Assembly: GCF_024296665.1 (NCBI RefSeq)
Contig: NZ_CP100762.1
Location: 1,364,001 to 1,428,000 of the forward strand
Source: Salinilacihabitans rarus
Lineage (GTDB): Archaea; Halobacteriota; Halobacteria; Halobacteriales; Natrialbaceae
Length of the DNA: 64,000 bases
Direction: 5' to 3'
Below the pieces are notes generated by a model. It searched no databases and was not told the origin of the DNA. It worked only from the letters and a program-made list of their open reading frames with translations. A program made the position numbers and the translations under genes. Positions 42,448 to 54,858 of this stretch are shown one piece after another. The first letter of the stretch is position 1; every line of letters starts with the position of its first letter.

Positions 42448-42519
42448 CCGTCGCCGGCGCGGCGACGCGGCGACGGATCGAGGGAAACCCTCATGCCGTC
42501 GCCGTCCGAAACCGCGGCC

Positions 42520-42966
42520 ATGAGCGACACCTCGTGGACCGACCGGATCGTCGGCGACCGGATGACCGTCGACCGGGAGTTCTCGAACCGGATCGCCAAC
42601 TCCCGGTTCACGAGCCAGGAGTGGAGCCTGATCATGACCGCCACCGAACTCGAGATCGAGAACCCGGAGGACCCCGACGCCGCGCGCATCGTCGCCAACA
42701 CCGAGAAGGTCGACCAGATCCTCCCCGAACTCGAGAACGTCCGCTCGCAGGTGGGCGCGATGGGCGGGGCGACCCGCGAGGGGGACTCCGGCGGCGGCCT
42801 CGTCGACTCGATCAAGGGCGCGCTCGGACTGGGCGGCGGCGGGTCCCACGACGCCGAGCGCGAAGCGGCCGAGGCGCTCACCCAGGAGTACGCCGAGCAG
42901 TTGCAGTCGCGTCTCGAGTCAAGCGGCCGCTGGGAGTCGGTCTGTGAGGCCGCCGCGACGGAGTGA
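42520..42966 (+). CDS. Conserved haloarchaeal protein (DUF5799-like)
   Basis: 148 residues from ATG 42520 (MSDTSWTDRIVGDRMTVDREF); the open frame begins 27 nt earlier but that part is not conserved in style. Features: an N-terminal block SNRIANSRFTSQEWSLIMTATELEIENPEDPDAARIVANTEKV, a Gly/Ser-rich hinge (SGGGLVDSIKGALGLGGGGS), and a C-terminal helix. From memory this matches DUF5799 of Halobacteria, function unknown. Soluble, no signal peptide. Confidence 0.72.
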   Translation: MSDTSWTDRIVGDRMTVDREFSNRIANSRFTSQEWSLIMTATELEIENPEDPDAARIVANTEKVDQILPELENVRSQVGAMGGATREGDSGGGLVDSIKGALGLGGGGSHDAEREAAEALTQEYAEQLQSRLESSGRWESVCEAAATE

Positions 42967-43123: not shown

Positions 43124-43210
43124 ACCCGACGGTTCGCGTCGAAGTTGCTTAAATGTCCGTGCGGGCCGGGAGTCACAGCACCTTTACGCGTGCCCGGCGT
43201 CGGGGGTGGT

Positions 43211-43495
43211 ATGAGCGACGTCGAAACGATCACGTTCTCGATCGAATCCGAAGACGACGCGGACGAAGTCACCCTGCCGACCGGCCTCGTCGACCTCCTC
43301 GCGGAGGGCGAACAGGGGCCCGCCGAAACCGTCGGCGACATCGCCTTGCTCGCGTTCGCCAGCCGCGCCCACCACGTCGTCCACCACGGCGAGGACGTCG
43401 ACGAGGAACTCGAAGCCCAGGAGGAGCGCGTGATGGACCTGTTCGAGGAGCGGTTCGGCGTCTCGTTCGCCGAGGCGACCGGGCACCACCACTGA
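43211..43495 (+). CDS. Small conserved haloarchaeal protein of unknown function
   Basis: 94 residues starting MSDVETITFSIESEDDADEVTLP. It continues TGLVDLLAEGEQGPAETVGDIALLAFASRAHHVVHHGEDVDEELEAQEERVMDLFEERFGVSF and ends with three histidines. Mostly helical and acidic; clustered His residues (AHHVVHHGED, GHHH) could bind metal. I do not recognise a named family with confidence. Divergent from the 47-residue gene. Confidence 0.7.
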   Translation: MSDVETITFSIESEDDADEVTLPTGLVDLLAEGEQGPAETVGDIALLAFASRAHHVVHHGEDVDEELEAQEERVMDLFEERFGVSFAEATGHHH

Positions 43496-43555: not shown

Positions 43556-46500
43556 TCACCCGACCGCCGCGGCGCCGAACGGCGAGTCGTCTTCGCCCTC
43601 GCCGTCGGTCGCCGCGTCCGCGACGACCGAGACCGTCGTCGACAGGCCCTCGTCGTCGTCGGTCGCGACCGCGTGTGTCACATCGCCCCCGGTTCCTGCG
43701 GGCACCGAGTACGCGAACGTGACGACGATCGACTCGCCGCCGTCGAGGTCGAGCGCCGCCCGTTCGACCGGCACGCCGTCGACGAGGTGGCTCACCGTCG
43801 TCTCGCCCGCGCGGTCCCCCTCGTTCTCGACCTCGGCGCTCACCTCGATCGTCTCGCCCTCGTCGGCCGTCTGGGGTGCCGAGACGTCGGTCACGGCGAA
43901 AAATGCGGGCTCGCCGCCCTCCTCGACGGTCGCCGTCGTCTCGTCGTCGTCGTCCGCGCTCGCGACCGCGACGGCGTACTCGCCGGGGTCGACGCCCTCG
44001 GTCTCGAAGGTCAGCGTCACCGCGGTCGACTCCCCGGAGTCGAGGCTCACGTCGGTCGAGTCGACGACCGCCCCGTCGACCGAGAGGTCGATCGTCCCCT
44101 CGCCGGCCTCGCCGCCGACGTTCTCGACCGTCGCGTCGACTTCGAGGTCGTCGCCGACCTCGACCGGGGCGTTCGTCCCGTCGATCGCGACGGCGAATTC
44201 CGCCGGGTCGGCGGCCTCGACGGTCACGACCGCCTCGTCGGCGATCGGTTCGTCCTCCTCGTCGAGGTACGGGACGTCGTCCTCGCCGTCGGCGTCGACG
44301 TAGTCGAACGTCTCGGTGTCGTTCGTGTCGCGGTGGGCGACCGCGACGAGGTCGTACTCGCCTTCCGCCAGGGGTTCGTCGAACTCGACCGTGACGTTCT
44401 CGTGTTCGCCGGGGTCGAGGAACTCGGAGGCGCCGAGGATCGTCTCCGGCGTCGGTTCGTCGAGCGCCTCCTCGTCGTGGACCGCGACGAAGCCGCCCTC
44501 CGAGAGGTTGGCCGCGTCGACGGTGACGTTCTCCCCCGCTGACTCCTGATCCTCGAACGTCACGTCGGCGGTCGGGGCCTCCTCGACGCCGTACTCGACC
44601 GTCTCGCTCGCGAGTTCGTCCCCCTCGTCGGCGTCGACCACCGACACGGCGACGGTCGCGTTCTCCTCGAGCGGCGGGTCGAGGGCGAGGGTCAGGTTCT
44701 CGACGGTCTCGTTCGCCTCGAAGCGCTCGCTCTCGACGCGTTCGCCGTCGTACTCGGCGGCGACGACGTAGTCGACCGTCGCGTTGGCCGCCTCGACCGT
44801 CAGCGTCTCGCCGTCGCCGGTCTGGTCGGCGACCGAGAGCGTCGCGTTGATTTCGGCTTCCTCGTCCGCGTCGGCTATCTCGTCCCCCTCTTCGTCGGTG
44901 ACGTTCTCGTCCGCGCCTTCGTCGACTTCCTCCGCGTCGTCTTCGTCTTCGTCTTCGTCTGCCGCGCCGTCCGCGTCGGCCTCGTCTTCCGCACCCTCTT
45001 CCGCGTCGTCTTCGTCAACGGCCTCGTCCGCGTCTCCTTCGTCTACAGCCTCGTCCTCGTCGGTGACGTTCCCGTCCACGTCGATCGGTTCGTCCGCGTC
45101 GAACTCCTCCTCGACCTCGTCGACCGCCTCCTCGGCGACGACCGCACTCTCGAACACCGGTTCGCCGCCCGGCGCGACGTACGGCGGGTCGTCCTCGCCG
45201 TCGGTGTCCACGTAGTCGAACGCCTCGTCGCCGGTCGTGTCGAGGTGGGCGACGACGTAGACCTCGGCGCCCGCGTCGAGGGACTCCTCGAGGTCGACCT
45301 CGACGTCCTCGCTCTCGCCGGGATCGAGGAACGCCGAGACGCCGATCACGTCTCCGGGTTCGAGGGCCGGGTCGTCGTAGACCGCGACGAAGCCGCCCTC
45401 CGAGAGGTCGGCGGACTCGACGACCACCGTCTCGCCGTCCGTTCGCTCGCGGACGTCGATCGTCGCCCGTCCCTCGACCGCCTCGACCGCCTCGGCGGAC
45501 TCGCCGGCCTCGGTTTCCGCGAACGCCGCGATTTCGGCCTCGTCGTCGGTCCCCGCCTCGACCGCGGCCGCGGTCGTCTCCGCCGCGGCGGTCGCCGTGA
45601 TCGTCTGCAACTGCGTGACCGACACCCGCTGGTACTGGACGACGTCGGCCGTCTCGCGGCAGGCGCTGCTGGCCGCCCGCTGGATCTGCTCGACGCTCGC
45701 CTCCTGCGTCCGTTCGAGCGCGCCGCCGGCGGCGCCCTCGGCGAGGCGCTGGATCTGGACGACGGTGACGACCTGCGTCTGCGTCACCGCCCCCTCGCCG
45801 GCGCCCCGGGCGGCCGCCTGGACCTGTTCGACCTCGACGACCTGCCGCTGGATCGCCGCCGCGACGGCGCCCTTCGCGGCGCCGAACGCCGCCGACTGCG
45901 TCTGGACGACGCTCACCTCCTGTACCTGCGTGATGACCCCGCCGGCCGCGCCGTCGGCCGCCGCCTGAATCTGCTCGACGCTCGCCGCCTGGCTCTGGCT
46001 GATCGCGCCCTTCGCGGCGCCGAAGGTCGCCTCCTGGATCTGTGTCACCGAGACCCGCTGGATCTGGACGACGTGGATCCGCTGGACCTGCTCCAGACAG
46101 CCCTTCGCGGCGCCGAACGCCGCCGACTGCGTCTGCTCGACGCTCACCTCCTGCTTCCCGACCAGCGCGCCCTTCGCGGCGCCCTTCGCGGCCTGCTGGA
46201 CCTGCTTGATCGTCACCGATTGCCGCTGTTCGACCTCGACGCGCTGTTCCTGTTCGAGGACGGTCCCGCCGTCGAGCGCGCCCGCCGACGCGCCCGCCGC
46301 GGCGTGCCCGAGGTGGTCGAGCGTGATCCGCTGGCGCTGCTCGACCGTCACCGTCTGGTACTGCGAGACGACGCCGTAGGCCGCTCCCTGTGCGGCCTCC
46401 TGGATCTTCCCGACCTTCCCGACGCCCTTCTCGCCCGCCTTTGCGGCCGCGCCGGCGGCGGCGCCCAGCGAGGCGGTCTGTAGCTGTTCGACGGTCGCCG

Positions 46501-47071
46501 TCTGTCGTTGAGCGATCGCCCCGTGACTGGCCCCCCACGTCGCGCTCTGTAACTGGGTCGCGTTCGCCGTCTGGTACTGGGCGAGCGCCCCGTCGGTCGC
46601 CCCGCCGACGGCCGCCTGCACCTGCGAGACGTTCACCCGCTGGTCCTGTACCAGCGTCCCGTGGACCGCTCCCGCGGTCGCCTCCTGGACCTGCTCGACG
46701 TCGGCCTCCTGGTGCTGGCTCGCGGATTCGAGCGCGGCCTCGACCGCGGCGACGCGTTGTTCCTGGCTCACCTCGACGCCTTGCTGCTGGACGAGTTCGA
46801 TCCCCTCGTCGACGCCCTGCTCGACGGCGTCCTCCTGCGCCTGCGAGAGGGCGCCCGCCTCGGGGGTCGTCGGCCCCATCGAGACGGGCGCGCGGGCCTC
46901 CAGCGCCGTCGTCCCCGCAGCGCGCGACTCGGCCGCCGTCGCCACCGTCCCCTCGAAGCCGTCGCCCCCACCGCCGTCTCCCGGGGCGAGCGCCGGCAGC
47001 GCGACCGCGCCCGAGACCATCGCGACCGCGAGGAGGGCCGCAAACCCCGCGCGGGACCGGCCCCCGGTCAT
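43556..47071 (-). CDS. Large secreted protein with 23-residue Gln-rich repeats, DUF7282-like and CARDB-like domains
   Basis: 1171 residues from ATG 47071, preceded by GGGGGAGG. A Sec signal peptide lies at about 8-30 (GFAALLAVAMVSGAVALPALA). From about 94 to 500 there are 13-15 copies of a 23-residue repeat, QxQxxxVxQ[LIV]QxAxxGAxxGA[ILV]x; clean spacings are 141-164-187, 358-381 and 407-430-453. Then DUF7282-like domains at about 535-645, 740-830 (partial) and 834-950 (VTFEDQESAGENVTVDAANLSEGGFVAVHD), an acidic linker at about 645-740, and two CARDB-like domains at about 958-1150. It ends DDSPFGAAAVG with no membrane anchor or PGF-CTERM. Many N-glycosylation sequons are present. Surface adhesion, fibre or matrix role is inference. 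Confidence 0.85.
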   Translation of the reverse strand: MTGGRSRAGFAALLAVAMVSGAVALPALAPGDGGGGDGFEGTVATAAESRAAGTTALEARAPVSMGPTTPEAGALSQAQEDAVEQGVDEGIELVQQQGVEVSQEQRVAAVEAALESASQHQEADVEQVQEATAGAVHGTLVQDQRVNVSQVQAAVGGATDGALAQYQTANATQLQSATWGASHGAIAQRQTATVEQLQTASLGAAAGAAAKAGEKGVGKVGKIQEAAQGAAYGVVSQYQTVTVEQRQRITLDHLGHAAAGASAGALDGGTVLEQEQRVEVEQRQSVTIKQVQQAAKGAAKGALVGKQEVSVEQTQSAAFGAAKGCLEQVQRIHVVQIQRVSVTQIQEATFGAAKGAISQSQAASVEQIQAAADGAAGGVITQVQEVSVVQTQSAAFGAAKGAVAAAIQRQVVEVEQVQAAARGAGEGAVTQTQVVTVVQIQRLAEGAAGGALERTQEASVEQIQRAASSACRETADVVQYQRVSVTQLQTITATAAAETTAAAVEAGTDDEAEIAAFAETEAGESAEAVEAVEGRATIDVRERTDGETVVVESADLSEGGFVAVYDDPALEPGDVIGVSAFLDPGESEDVEVDLEESLDAGAEVYVVAHLDTTGDEAFDYVDTDGEDDPPYVAPGGEPVFESAVVAEEAVDEVEEEFDADEPIDVDGNVTDEDEAVDEGDADEAVDEDDAEEGAEDEADADGAADEDEDEDDAEEVDEGADENVTDEEGDEIADADEEAEINATLSVADQTGDGETLTVEAANATVDYVVAAEYDGERVESERFEANETVENLTLALDPPLEENATVAVSVVDADEGDELASETVEYGVEEAPTADVTFEDQESAGENVTVDAANLSEGGFVAVHDEEALDEPTPETILGASEFLDPGEHENVTVEFDEPLAEGEYDLVAVAHRDTNDTETFDYVDADGEDDVPYLDEEDEPIADEAVVTVEAADPAEFAVAIDGTNAPVEVGDDLEVDATVENVGGEAGEGTIDLSVDGAVVDSTDVSLDSGESTAVTLTFETEGVDPGEYAVAVASADDDDETTATVEEGGEPAFFAVTDVSAPQTADEGETIEVSAEVENEGDRAGETTVSHLVDGVPVERAALDLDGGESIVVTFAYSVPAGTGGDVTHAVATDDDEGLSTTVSVVADAATDGEGEDDSPFGAAAVG
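45600..46790. repeat. Tandem 69-bp coding repeat (23-residue Gln-rich units)
   Basis: On the minus strand the DNA encodes successive units such as QSQAASVEQIQAAADGAAGG, QVQEVSVVQTQSAAFGAAKG and QTQVVTVVQIQRLAEGAAGG. Units diverge in codons but keep the Gln positions and the Ala/Gly block. Some copies carry inserts (after about residues 209, 250 and 335). The pattern of two short alternating strands plus a small-residue turn suggests a repetitive beta or beta-alpha solenoid. Confidence 0.8.
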
Positions 47072-47380: not shown

Positions 47381-47410
47381 CGTAAACCGAAGTATTGAAA
47401 TTGGTTTACG
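47381..47410. promoter_or_regulatory. BirA-type biotin operator over the bioY promoter
   Basis: CGTAAACC (47381-47388) and GGTTTACG (47403-47410) are perfect 8-bp inverted arms separated by 14 bases. The BirA consensus known from bacteria and some archaea is TGTAAACC-N(14-16)-GGTTTACA. Between the arms, TATTGAAA (47393-47400) is about 25-30 nt before the bioY ATG, so it can be the TATA box. Biotin-bound BirA here would block TBP/TFB. Strong evidence that the downstream genes serve biotin. Confidence 0.85.
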
Positions 47411-47424
47411 AGACAGTCGGCTCC

Positions 47425-48000
47425 ATGGCGACGGAACACGACTCGGTCGATCTGGTATCGGCGGACGTGACGCTCGGATTCGCACGCGCCGTCCTGTTCG
47501 CCGCGCTGCTGGCGGTCGGCGCGTGGATCGCGATCCCGATATCGGCGGTTCCCGGCACGTTACAGACGTTCGTGGTCTTCCTCGTCGGCCTCTACCTCGG
47601 CCCCTACTGGGGGACGGCGTCGGTCGTCCTCTACCTCGCGGTGGGCGCGGTCGGCGCGCCGGTGTTCGCCGAGTTCAGCGCCGGCTTCGGCGTCCTCCTC
47701 GGCCCGCACGGCGGCTTCCTCTGGACGTTCCCGGTCGCCGCGTTCCTGATCGGGGCCGCCGTCCACCGCGGGGGCGACCTGCGGAACCCGGCCGACGCGT
47801 CCCTCCCCGTGCTCGTCGGGAGCCTCCTCGCCGCGACGGCGGTCGTCTACGCCGCCGGATTCGGCTGGTACGCGTGGTCCACCGGAACGCCCCTCGGACG
47901 GGCGTTCGCCCTCGTCGCGGCGCCGCTGCTCCCGGGGGACCTGCTCAAGGTCGCCGCCGCGGTCGCCGTCGTCCGCACGGGCGCGGTCGACCCGACCTGA
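47425..48000 (+). CDS. bioY: Biotin transporter substrate-binding subunit BioY (ECF S component)
   Basis: 191 residues with six helices. BioY signatures: ARAVLFAALLAVGAWIAIPISAVPGTLQTFVVFLVGLYLGPYWGTASVVLYLAVGAVGAPVFAEFSAGFGVLLGPHGGFLWTF, broken here only by loops, and a C-terminal LLPGDLLKVAAAVAVV. It captures biotin and works with the ATPase and T subunit encoded next. ATG 47425 sits 15 nt after the operator, so the message is near-leaderless. BioM follows 3 bases after the stop. Confidence 0.95.
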   Translation: MATEHDSVDLVSADVTLGFARAVLFAALLAVGAWIAIPISAVPGTLQTFVVFLVGLYLGPYWGTASVVLYLAVGAVGAPVFAEFSAGFGVLLGPHGGFLWTFPVAAFLIGAAVHRGGDLRNPADASLPVLVGSLLAATAVVYAAGFGWYAWSTGTPLGRAFALVAAPLLPGDLLKVAAAVAVVRTGAVDPT

Positions 48001-48003
48001 GCC

Positions 48004-48708
48004 ATGATCGAGTTCCGGTCGGTCTCGTACGGCTTCGGGGACGGTCCCGTCCTCGAGGACCTCACGCTCGCGGTCGACGACGGCGAGTTCGTCCTCCTCG
48101 CGGGGGCCAACGGCAGCGGAAAGACGACGCTCCTGCGCCACTGCAACGGCCTCCTGACCCCCGACAGCGGCGAGGTGCTGGTCGACGGCGTCCCCGTCGC
48201 GGCGAACCCCGTCGCCGCGCGGACGGCCGTCGGCATGGTGTTCCAGCACCCCCGGGACCAGTTCGTCGCCGCGACCGTCGCCGAGGACGTCGCCTTCGGC
48301 CCCGAGAACCTCGGCCTGTCCCGCGAGGAGGTCGACCGCCGGGTCGCGAGCGCGCTCGAAGCGGTCGCGCTGGATGGGTACGGGACCGAGCGCATCGACG
48401 CGCTCTCGGGAGGCGAGCAGTCGCGGGTGGCCATCGCCGGCGCGCTCGCGATGGAGCCCACCCACCTCGTCCTCGACGAACCGTTCACCGGCCTCGACGA
48501 CCCCGCCCGCCGCTCCGTCCTCGCGCGCCTCGAAGCGCTGTCGGCCGACGGCACGGGCGTCGTCCTCGCGACCCACGACCTGCGTGACGTCCGCGCGCTG
48601 GCCGACCGCGTGATCGGGATGACCGACGGCCGCGTCGTCGTCGACGCCCCGCCCGAGACGGCGCTCGACGACCTCGAACCTCTCGGCGTGCGGGTCCCGC
48701 AATGTTGA
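48004..48708 (+). CDS. bioM: ECF transporter ATPase BioM
   Basis: 234 residues, ABC ATPase. Walker A is GANGSGKT at 34-41, Q-loop FQHPRDQF, signature ALSGGEQSRVAIAGALA, Walker B HLVLDEPFTGLDD and switch ATHDLRDV. The GPENLGLSREEV block is typical of ECF A-components. It drives biotin uptake with BioY and BioN and likely works as homodimer, since only one ATPase gene is present. Its stop overlaps bioN by 7 nt. Confidence 0.94.
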   Translation: MIEFRSVSYGFGDGPVLEDLTLAVDDGEFVLLAGANGSGKTTLLRHCNGLLTPDSGEVLVDGVPVAANPVAARTAVGMVFQHPRDQFVAATVAEDVAFGPENLGLSREEVDRRVASALEAVALDGYGTERIDALSGGEQSRVAIAGALAMEPTHLVLDEPFTGLDDPARRSVLARLEALSADGTGVVLATHDLRDVRALADRVIGMTDGRVVVDAPPETALDDLEPLGVRVPQC

Positions 48709-49406
48709 GCTACGAACCGGACGACGCGCTCGCCCACCGCCTCGACCCGCGGTCGAAACTGGCGTTCCAGGCGGCGTTCGCGATCACCGCGCTGGCACAC
48801 CCGACGCCCCGGGCGCTGGCGGCGCTCACGGCGGTCGCACTGGCCGCCCTCGCCGCGGCGCGAACCGCGCCGCTGCGGGCGCTGTACGCCTCCCGGTTCG
48901 CGCTGCTCCTGCTCGCGGTCGCCCCCCTCGTCTCCGCGCTCACCCTCGGCCCTCCGTGGTTCGATTCGGCCGCGACCGTCGCCCCCGCGCTGTCGAGCTA
49001 TCGCGTCCTGCTGATCCTGCTGGTCAGCGCCGCCTACGTCCGCTCGACGCCGATCCGCGACTCGCGGGCGGCGATCCAGCGGACGGTCCCCGGAAGGCCC
49101 GGCCAACTGCTCGGCGTCGGCGTCGCGCTCGTCTTCCGCTTTCTCCCCGTGTTGCGGGGCGACCTCCGGACGATCCGCGAGGCGTCGGCGGCGCGGCTGG
49201 GGACCGAACGCGGCGCGCTCGAACGCGTGACCCACCTCGGCGTCCTCGCGTTGCGGCGCGTCTTCGTCCGCGCGGATCGCCTCTCGCTCGCGCTGCAGGC
49301 GCGGTGTTTCGCGTGGAACCCGACGCTGCCGGCGCTGTCGTTCTCGCGGCTGGACGTTCCCGTGCTGGGGCTTGCGGTCGTGCTGGCGCTGTCGGCGGTG
49401 GTGTGA
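48702..49406 (+). CDS. bioN: ECF transporter transmembrane subunit BioN (T component)
   Basis: 234 residues with about five helices. Starts MLSYEPDDALAHRLDPRSKLAFQ, with the DPRSKL block of T components. The coupling helices carry the Ala-Arg-Gly-type motifs: EASAARLGTERG and a second one at SLALQARCFAWNP, which contact the ATPases. Last gene of the bioYMN operon. No biotin synthesis genes are in the window, suggesting scavenging at least from this locus. Confidence 0.92.
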   Translation: MLSYEPDDALAHRLDPRSKLAFQAAFAITALAHPTPRALAALTAVALAALAAARTAPLRALYASRFALLLLAVAPLVSALTLGPPWFDSAATVAPALSSYRVLLILLVSAAYVRSTPIRDSRAAIQRTVPGRPGQLLGVGVALVFRFLPVLRGDLRTIREASAARLGTERGALERVTHLGVLALRRVFVRADRLSLALQARCFAWNPTLPALSFSRLDVPVLGLAVVLALSAVV

Positions 49407-54066: not shown

Positions 54067-54858
54067 ATGCACCCGCTCGACAACTCGTCGATCACCCGGG
54101 ACGGGAAGGCGCTGATCCTCGCACACGACCACGGTCTGGAACACGGTCCCGCCGCGTTCGCGGGCGTCGAGGAGCGACTCGACCCCGAGACGGTCTTCGA
54201 GATGGCGACCCACGACGCGGTGACCGCGCTCGCGGTCCAGAAGGGGCTGGCGGAGACGTACTACCCCTCCTACGAGGACGACGTCGCCCTGCTCGCGAAG
54301 TGCAACGGCACCTCCAGCCTCTGGATGGGCGAACCCTACTCGCCGCAGACGTGCTCGGTCGACTACGCGGTCGAACTCGGCGCCGACGCCATCGGCTACA
54401 CCGTCTATCCGGGAACCAACCGCGAACCCGAGATGTTCGAGGAGTTCCGCGCGGTTCAGGAACGCGCCCGCGAGTACGACCTGCCGGTCGCGATGTGGTC
54501 GTACCCGCGCGGGCAGGCGCTGAAGGAGCACCGCAGCCCCGACGTGATCGCCTACGCCGCCCGGATCGGCCTCGAACTGGGCGCCGACCTCGCGAAGGTG
54601 AAGTACCCGCGCAGTCCCGAGGCGCTCGCGCGCGCGGTCGACGCCGCCGGCGACGTGAAGGTCGTCCTCAGCGGCGGGTCGAAGACGAGCGACCGGGAGT
54701 TCGTCTCGCTCGTCGCGGCGGCGATGGACGCCGGCGCGAGCGGCCTCGCCGTCGGACGCAACGTCTGGCAGCGCGAGGACCCCGCGGCCATCCTCGACGC
54801 GCTCGAACGCGTGGTGTTCGAGGGCGCCTCCGCCGACGAGGCACTCGACGCTCGATGA
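54067..54858 (+). CDS. fba: Class I fructose-1,6-bisphosphate aldolase (DhnA/FbaB type)
   Basis: 263 residues. Archaeal-type class I aldolase: LILAHDHGLEHGPAAF, AVQKGLAETYYPSYEDDV, LLAKCNGTSSLW, Schiff-base lysine in ADLAKVKYPRSPEAL, and phosphate-binding VVLSGGSKTSDREF with GASGLAVGRNVWQ. It splits fructose-1,6-bisphosphate to two trioses or makes it in gluconeogenesis. ATG overlaps nothing upstream; a TATA-like GTCAAAATGG lies about 55-60 nt before. It overlaps fbp by 4 nt (ATGA) and converges on the PTS genes, whose end product it uses. Confidence 0.94.
   Translation: MHPLDNSSITRDGKALILAHDHGLEHGPAAFAGVEERLDPETVFEMATHDAVTALAVQKGLAETYYPSYEDDVALLAKCNGTSSLWMGEPYSPQTCSVDYAVELGADAIGYTVYPGTNREPEMFEEFRAVQERAREYDLPVAMWSYPRGQALKEHRSPDVIAYAARIGLELGADLAKVKYPRSPEALARAVDAAGDVKVVLSGGSKTSDREFVSLVAAAMDAGASGLAVGRNVWQREDPAAILDALERVVFEGASADEALDAR

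Follow-up and report, generated by a model that had tools for sequence, protein, structure and literature searches.

A 23-residue glutamine repeat in putatively secreted haloarchaeal proteins, predicted to stack with one helix per unit

Biofilms of Haloferax volcanii stain with an amyloid dye (PMC4180959), and an archaeal sheath that consists of an amyloid-like protein is known (PMC10593813). The alpha-solenoid subfolds, as covered in a review (PMC11514114) and in part as generally known, are built from helix-pair or triple-helix repeats. The open-access literature on the repeat, on DUF7282 and on haloarchaeal amyloids yielded no description of the family of glutamine (Gln) repeats that is presented here.

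The repeat gene is located within the window, i.e. the complete analysed stretch of 64,000 nucleotides from Salinilacihabitans rarus. A GGAGG motif is found a few bases upstream of its ATG (47071). The gene and the regions of its product are as follows.

43556..47071, minus strand: whole gene, one open frame of 1,171 residues plus stop, with ATG at 47071
46985..47071, minus strand: putative Sec-type signal sequence, residues 1-29 (hydrophobic stretch in the sequence)
46844..46984, minus strand: variable low-complexity linker, residues 30-76 (ortholog comparison)
45554..46843, minus strand: Gln-repeat domain, residues ~77-506, 16 units (periodicity, alignment, fold prediction)
45137..45463, minus strand: DUF7282 copy 1, residues 537-645 (Pfam, E=1.2e-31)
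44846..45136, minus strand: acidic low-complexity linker, residues 646-742 (sequence composition)
44570..44845, minus strand: weak DUF7282-like domain, residues 743-834 (E=1.7e-4, 22.2 bits, Pfam cut-off 27)
44222..44569, minus strand: DUF7282 copy 3, residues 835-950 (Pfam)
43922..44176, minus strand: CARDB copy 1, residues 966-1050 (Pfam)
43652..43894, minus strand: CARDB copy 2, residues 1060-1140 (Pfam, E=2.2e-8)

The original prediction of a secreted protein with DUF7282-like and CARDB-like domains behind the repeat agrees with this layout, as far as the N-terminal sequence and Pfam can tell. The signal would probably be cleaved after A24 (between GAVA and LP) or after A29, and in orthologs the hydrophobic N-terminal stretch leads into a conserved [LFV]P(L/M)LGG-like motif. 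The linker behind it differs among orthologs in both length and sequence. Pfam assigns DUF7282 (PF23951) with 207 bits (cut-off 27) and CARDB (PF07705) with 55 bits (cut-off 22.7), DUF7282 being found twice clearly and once weakly. Weak matches to PilZ and PAS_7 at residues ~525-588 overlap with DUF7282 and were regarded as spurious. PDB sequences gave no match to the C-terminal part at E<=0.1. Asp and Glu make up 33% of residues 506-1171, while they account for 6-11% of the Gln-repeat domain across the family. The relative from Haladaptatus (L087:6313-8718) is net basic throughout, with 21 acidic versus 34 basic residues among 802, which is unusual for a secreted haloarchaeal protein.

The 23-residue repeat is genuine and greatly exceeds chance expectation. 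Self-identity of the repeat domain is highest at lag 23 (z=10.9 versus shuffles) and shows smaller maxima at lags 54, 46 and 31. Gln is periodic at lag 8 (z=8.1) and lag 23 (z=9.9), again versus shuffles. Unit positions were anchored on the helical QxQ, the Gln residues of which are numbered 0 and 2. There are 16 units when degenerate ones are counted, the first eight anchored at residues 103, 127, 150, 173, 196, 222, 253 and 290, and the last eight at 313, 344, 367, 390, 416, 439, 462 and 487. The interval is exactly 23 in 8 of the 15 cases, the others being 24, 25, 26, 26, 31, 31 and 37. An interval of 31 residues represents 23 plus one extra QxQxxxVx octad, and the other irregular gaps hold extra octads or short insertions. 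While the repeat as such stands, the earlier count of 13-15 copies has to be raised, and the exact spacing in long runs was overstated because the longest exact-23 run comprises four units.

Each unit is bipartite, consisting of the 8-residue QxQxxxVx and a 15-residue QxQxAAxGAAxGAxx module. The search motif leaves positions -8 and -6 free, and the Gln residues there are conserved to 97-98%. Units of the same register are on average 73% identical between species, compared to 48% for different units within one protein (45 rows, almost all from Natrialbaceae, compared at 11 well-populated unit positions). The units must thus have diverged before the species split, without homogenisation since then. 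Unit spacing is nearly identical over most of the Natrialbaceae orthologs. That the register has been kept between species points to an old chromosomal gene.

In Pfam, nothing covers the repeat of the window protein, and at E<=1 none of the models scores meaningfully on it in the 63 aligned family members. NCBIfam has nothing for the window protein, and a search of PDB sequences with the repeat profile gave no match at E<=10. Gly-zipper_YMGG, at E=0.095, is below the cut-off and was rejected as the identity of the repeat. The impression that the repeat belongs to no described family is thus borne out for Pfam, NCBIfam and the PDB, where neither sequences nor folds provided a match.

In the searches made here, the family is confined to the order Halobacteriales. 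A query made of part of the repeats finds matches in 103 of 125 Natrialbaceae genomes, mostly over the full length and with ~55-73% identity, and in a wider sample of Halobacteriales there are matches in 88 of 293 genomes. The repeat profile matches 112 of 391 genomes sampled from the class and 20 of 393 sampled from the phylum. Among the matches listed in the family, order, class and phylum searches, all are from Halobacteriales. When 84,980 species genomes of bacteria and archaea were scanned with conserved motifs of the family, an approach that would miss very distant relatives, only haloarchaea were returned (including Natrinema, Natrialba, Natronorubrum, Haloterrigena, Halostagnicola, Halovivax, Haladaptatus, Halorussus, Halosimplex, Halorientalis, Haloarcula and others). 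A viral or mobile origin was considered and rejected, there being no relative in viral contigs or phage records; partial matches occur in two plasmid records only.

In most Natrialbaceae loci, the repeat gene is adjoined on one side by a divergently oriented set of bioY, ABC ATPase and CbiQ-like genes (47395-49406 in the window, plus strand), probably a biotin ECF transporter, and on the other side by the convergent genes for DUF7545 and DUF5799 (43145-43495 and 42493-42966, plus strand). Outside Natrialbaceae the surroundings differ and consist mostly of metabolic genes. The neighbours were rejected as a clue to function, since their synteny is confined to Natrialbaceae and absent from the other families. 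A gene for a DeoC-type aldolase is encoded ~7 kb from the repeat gene (54067-54858 in the window), and a ~70% identical homolog (L087:4564-5352) is found ~1 kb from the repeat gene of Haladaptatus; this proximity is possibly due to chance.

Structure prediction of the repeat region (AlphaFold2, residues 70-512 of the window protein, 63 aligned sequences) gave an almost wholly helical array with a mean pLDDT of 86.8 and a pTM of 0.89. It has 18 helices at unit spacing, about one per unit, and no real strands. The predicted helix covers ~16 residues or slightly more, from -2 to +13, and is preceded by a linker of ~7 extended residues from -9 to -3. Four of the five models have pLDDT values of 79-87 and one has 48.7, and AlphaFold2 may be over-confident on repeat proteins. 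A second job with the Haladaptatus relative, based on 17 sequences from outside Natrialbaceae, reproduced the helix register (-2 to +13) over the first ~250 residues with pLDDT mostly 70-96. This provides only partial support because residues 254-426 failed (pLDDT ~20; overall pLDDT 58.4, pTM 0.55). Most of the 17 sequences were also present in the first alignment, so that the second job is not entirely independent of the first. Both jobs used sequences from the window and from its related loci only.

An argument for the helix that does not involve AlphaFold2, and which agrees with the predicted register, comes from the distribution of charges in 644 distinct units. From -1 to 14 the fraction of charged residues has a period of 96-100 degrees, i.e. 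~3.6 residues (p=0.005; p=0.0037 with positions fixed by the search motif left out), while from -10 to 0 the period is 2 residues, or 180 degrees (p=0.0017). Charge sits at -1, 3, 6, 10 and partly 14, which on a helix is one stripe, and is absent at 4, 5, 8, 9, 12 and 13. The corresponding periodicity of information content in the helix part is weaker (p=0.07). The original prediction had alternating Gln and hydrophobic residues forming two short beta strands, followed by an Ala/Gly turn. The alternation itself is found, confined to the first half of the unit (-10 to +2), but the predicted helices in the window protein, seen also in the confident half of the Haladaptatus model, speak against the strands, and the charge pattern of the Ala/Gly half is helical rather than turn-like.

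The alternation would also suit a mixed strand-helix solenoid resembling a leucine-rich repeat (LRR). In this case, a true parallel beta sheet with ladders of Gln would be built by the L.Q.Q.V.V.Q.Q half, and helix would be limited to the Ala/Gly half. The strict two-residue periodicity over 11-13 residues and the conservation of Gln at -8 and -6 are what such a sheet would show. We nevertheless regard this arrangement as unlikely, since AlphaFold2 places helix from -2 and linkers without strand in both the window protein and the confident part of its Haladaptatus relative, and since no LRR model matched in Pfam among the 63 members. The consensus of 23-residue LRRs is, moreover, unlike that of the Gln-repeat unit. 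A fold search against the PDB returned TALE repeats and designed helical repeats at the top, with query TM-scores <=0.23 among the listed chains, values that may arise between superhelices of unlike curvature even if they are locally alike. At such scores, no close solved counterpart of the predicted arrangement was found; a search against viral folds gave no match at E<=0.001.

Some positions of the exposed register are near-invariant in Natrialbaceae (H137, W179, H183, E225, Q228, Y232 and K289). Outside this family they are kept or conservatively replaced (W179 by F/Y, Y232 by F), and most other exposed positions of the repeat domain vary more. This conservation suggests a putative binding surface in the N-terminal half of the repeat domain.

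The C-terminal parts are exchanged between relatives, which carry DUF7282 alone, CARDB, neither of them, right-handed beta-helix/NosD modules, or TSP3 repeats plus CAP. The proposal that the C-terminal domains are adhesion or sugar-binding heads fits these module types. In three relatives (L086:2839-8496, L084:2449-8754, L078:3224-8479), right-handed beta-helix/NosD-like modules, perhaps carbohydrate-related, are fused to the Gln-repeat domain. Another one (L055:6643-13518), the open frame of which begins with a region resembling non-coding sequence, combines fewer repeats with TSP3 repeats and a YkwD-like CAP domain, and has a hydrophobic tail at its C-terminus. Several further matches (e.g. 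to a T9SS tail or hemicentin) lie in highly acidic repeats of relatives and are probably compositional. Tat-like signals occur in some relatives, among them the paralogs L054, L056 and L057, the units of which have mostly 26 residues (8+18) in L054 and L056 and a 23/26 mix in L057. In some relatives, the C-terminal part has a hydrophobic segment with basic residues behind it. Neither feature is present in the window protein, and its lack of an obvious C-terminal membrane anchor was counted against a surface location. An archaeal sorting-signal model was matched by 0 of the 3 relatives tested.

The conserved His/Trp/Glu/Gln/Tyr/Lys set, shared across haloarchaeal families, and the unit order that is fixed within Natrialbaceae could alternatively reflect a solenoid dedicated to specific molecular recognition, as a receptor, a chaperone of envelope proteins or a partner-binding platform, instead of adhesion. 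This appears rather improbable to us, given that the C-terminal modules are variable and either adhesive or carbohydrate-related in type, and that the loci compared within and outside Natrialbaceae showed no conserved operon partner apart from housekeeping genes of unrelated function.

A functional amyloid or beta-solenoid fibre, with curli-like cross-beta stacking and Gln ladders, would suit the Gln-rich alternating motif and has the Haloferax staining and the archaeal sheath as precedents, but is very improbable in view of the helical prediction, the helical charge periodicity in half of the unit, the absence of curlin-repeat matches in any of the 63 members at E<=1, the unit-specific conservation among orthologs, and the origin of the staining from an organism without a demonstrated member of the family. 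Of the earlier alternative between solenoid and amyloid-like fibre, only the solenoid is thus retained, as probable, and the analogy to curlin is given up. Strict unit order and unit-specific invariant surface residues are more in keeping with a protein of defined fold than with a generic fibre former.

We thus favour, with somewhat better than even confidence, a secreted solenoid with one helix per repeat, which would be a surface scaffold or adhesin with swappable adhesive or carbohydrate-related domains and not an amyloid. The protein would be exported by the Sec route, as its N-terminal sequence suggests, and residues ~77-506 are predicted to form a rigid solenoid, to which every 23-residue unit supplies a short helix with an Ala/Gly face and an extended segment that contains Gln. 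The glycines at positions 7 and 11 of the helix may permit close packing of neighbouring helices, and the near-invariant Gln pairs may form hydrogen-bond ladders from unit to unit. In this rod of fixed unit order (within Natrialbaceae), the conserved patch probably binds a partner, such as a further copy of the protein, the S-layer or a glycan, and the DUF7282 and CARDB domains would represent a changeable display or adhesion end. It is the company of these domains that suggests adhesion.

More tentatively, and with slightly less than even confidence, this may be a new haloarchaea-restricted class of solenoid, with an Ala/Gly-zipper helix plus an extended segment per 23-residue unit and with Gln-pair ladders, yielding a rigid extracellular rod that would be stable at high salt while lacking the acidic surface usual in halophiles. 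If true, an undescribed repeat family, probably with a new solenoid geometry, would be added to the archaeal cell surface, for which few adhesins are known so far. An extracellular Gln/Ala/Gly domain poor in acidic residues departs from the usual acidic pattern of halophiles and might be instructive for salt-tolerant design. As the gene is kept in most Natrialbaceae genomes, a deletion phenotype should be testable.

Among known systems, the haloarchaeal surface proteins with DUF7282 and CARDB have the same C-terminal modules as the window protein. Further loci similar to its C-terminal part exist in the same genome, but these lack the Gln-repeat domain, which is found in this gene only. The 23-residue LRRs have the same unit length and also an extended part followed by a helical one, but differ from the Gln/Val/Ala/Gly consensus and its lack of a predicted strand. 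Curlin (CsgA) repeats are of similar length, have regularly spaced Gln and are secreted; the Gln repeat differs in being Ala/Gly-rich and in its predicted helical fold, which in the confident parts of both AlphaFold2 predictions replaces the strand-turn-strand of curlin, and the protein differs in having orthologous folded units and fused C-terminal domains. Pfam models for TPR, HEAT, ARM, ANK, PPR and TALE gave no sequence match to the window protein and the 63 members, and solved members of these families do not share its predicted fold at the TM-scores given above. In general architecture, the Gln repeat would resemble the alpha-solenoids (ANK, ARM, HEAT, TPR, PPR, PUF, TALE) if its tandem helical units stack into an elongated domain as predicted, but it would be built from one helix per 23 residues instead of helix pairs or triples.
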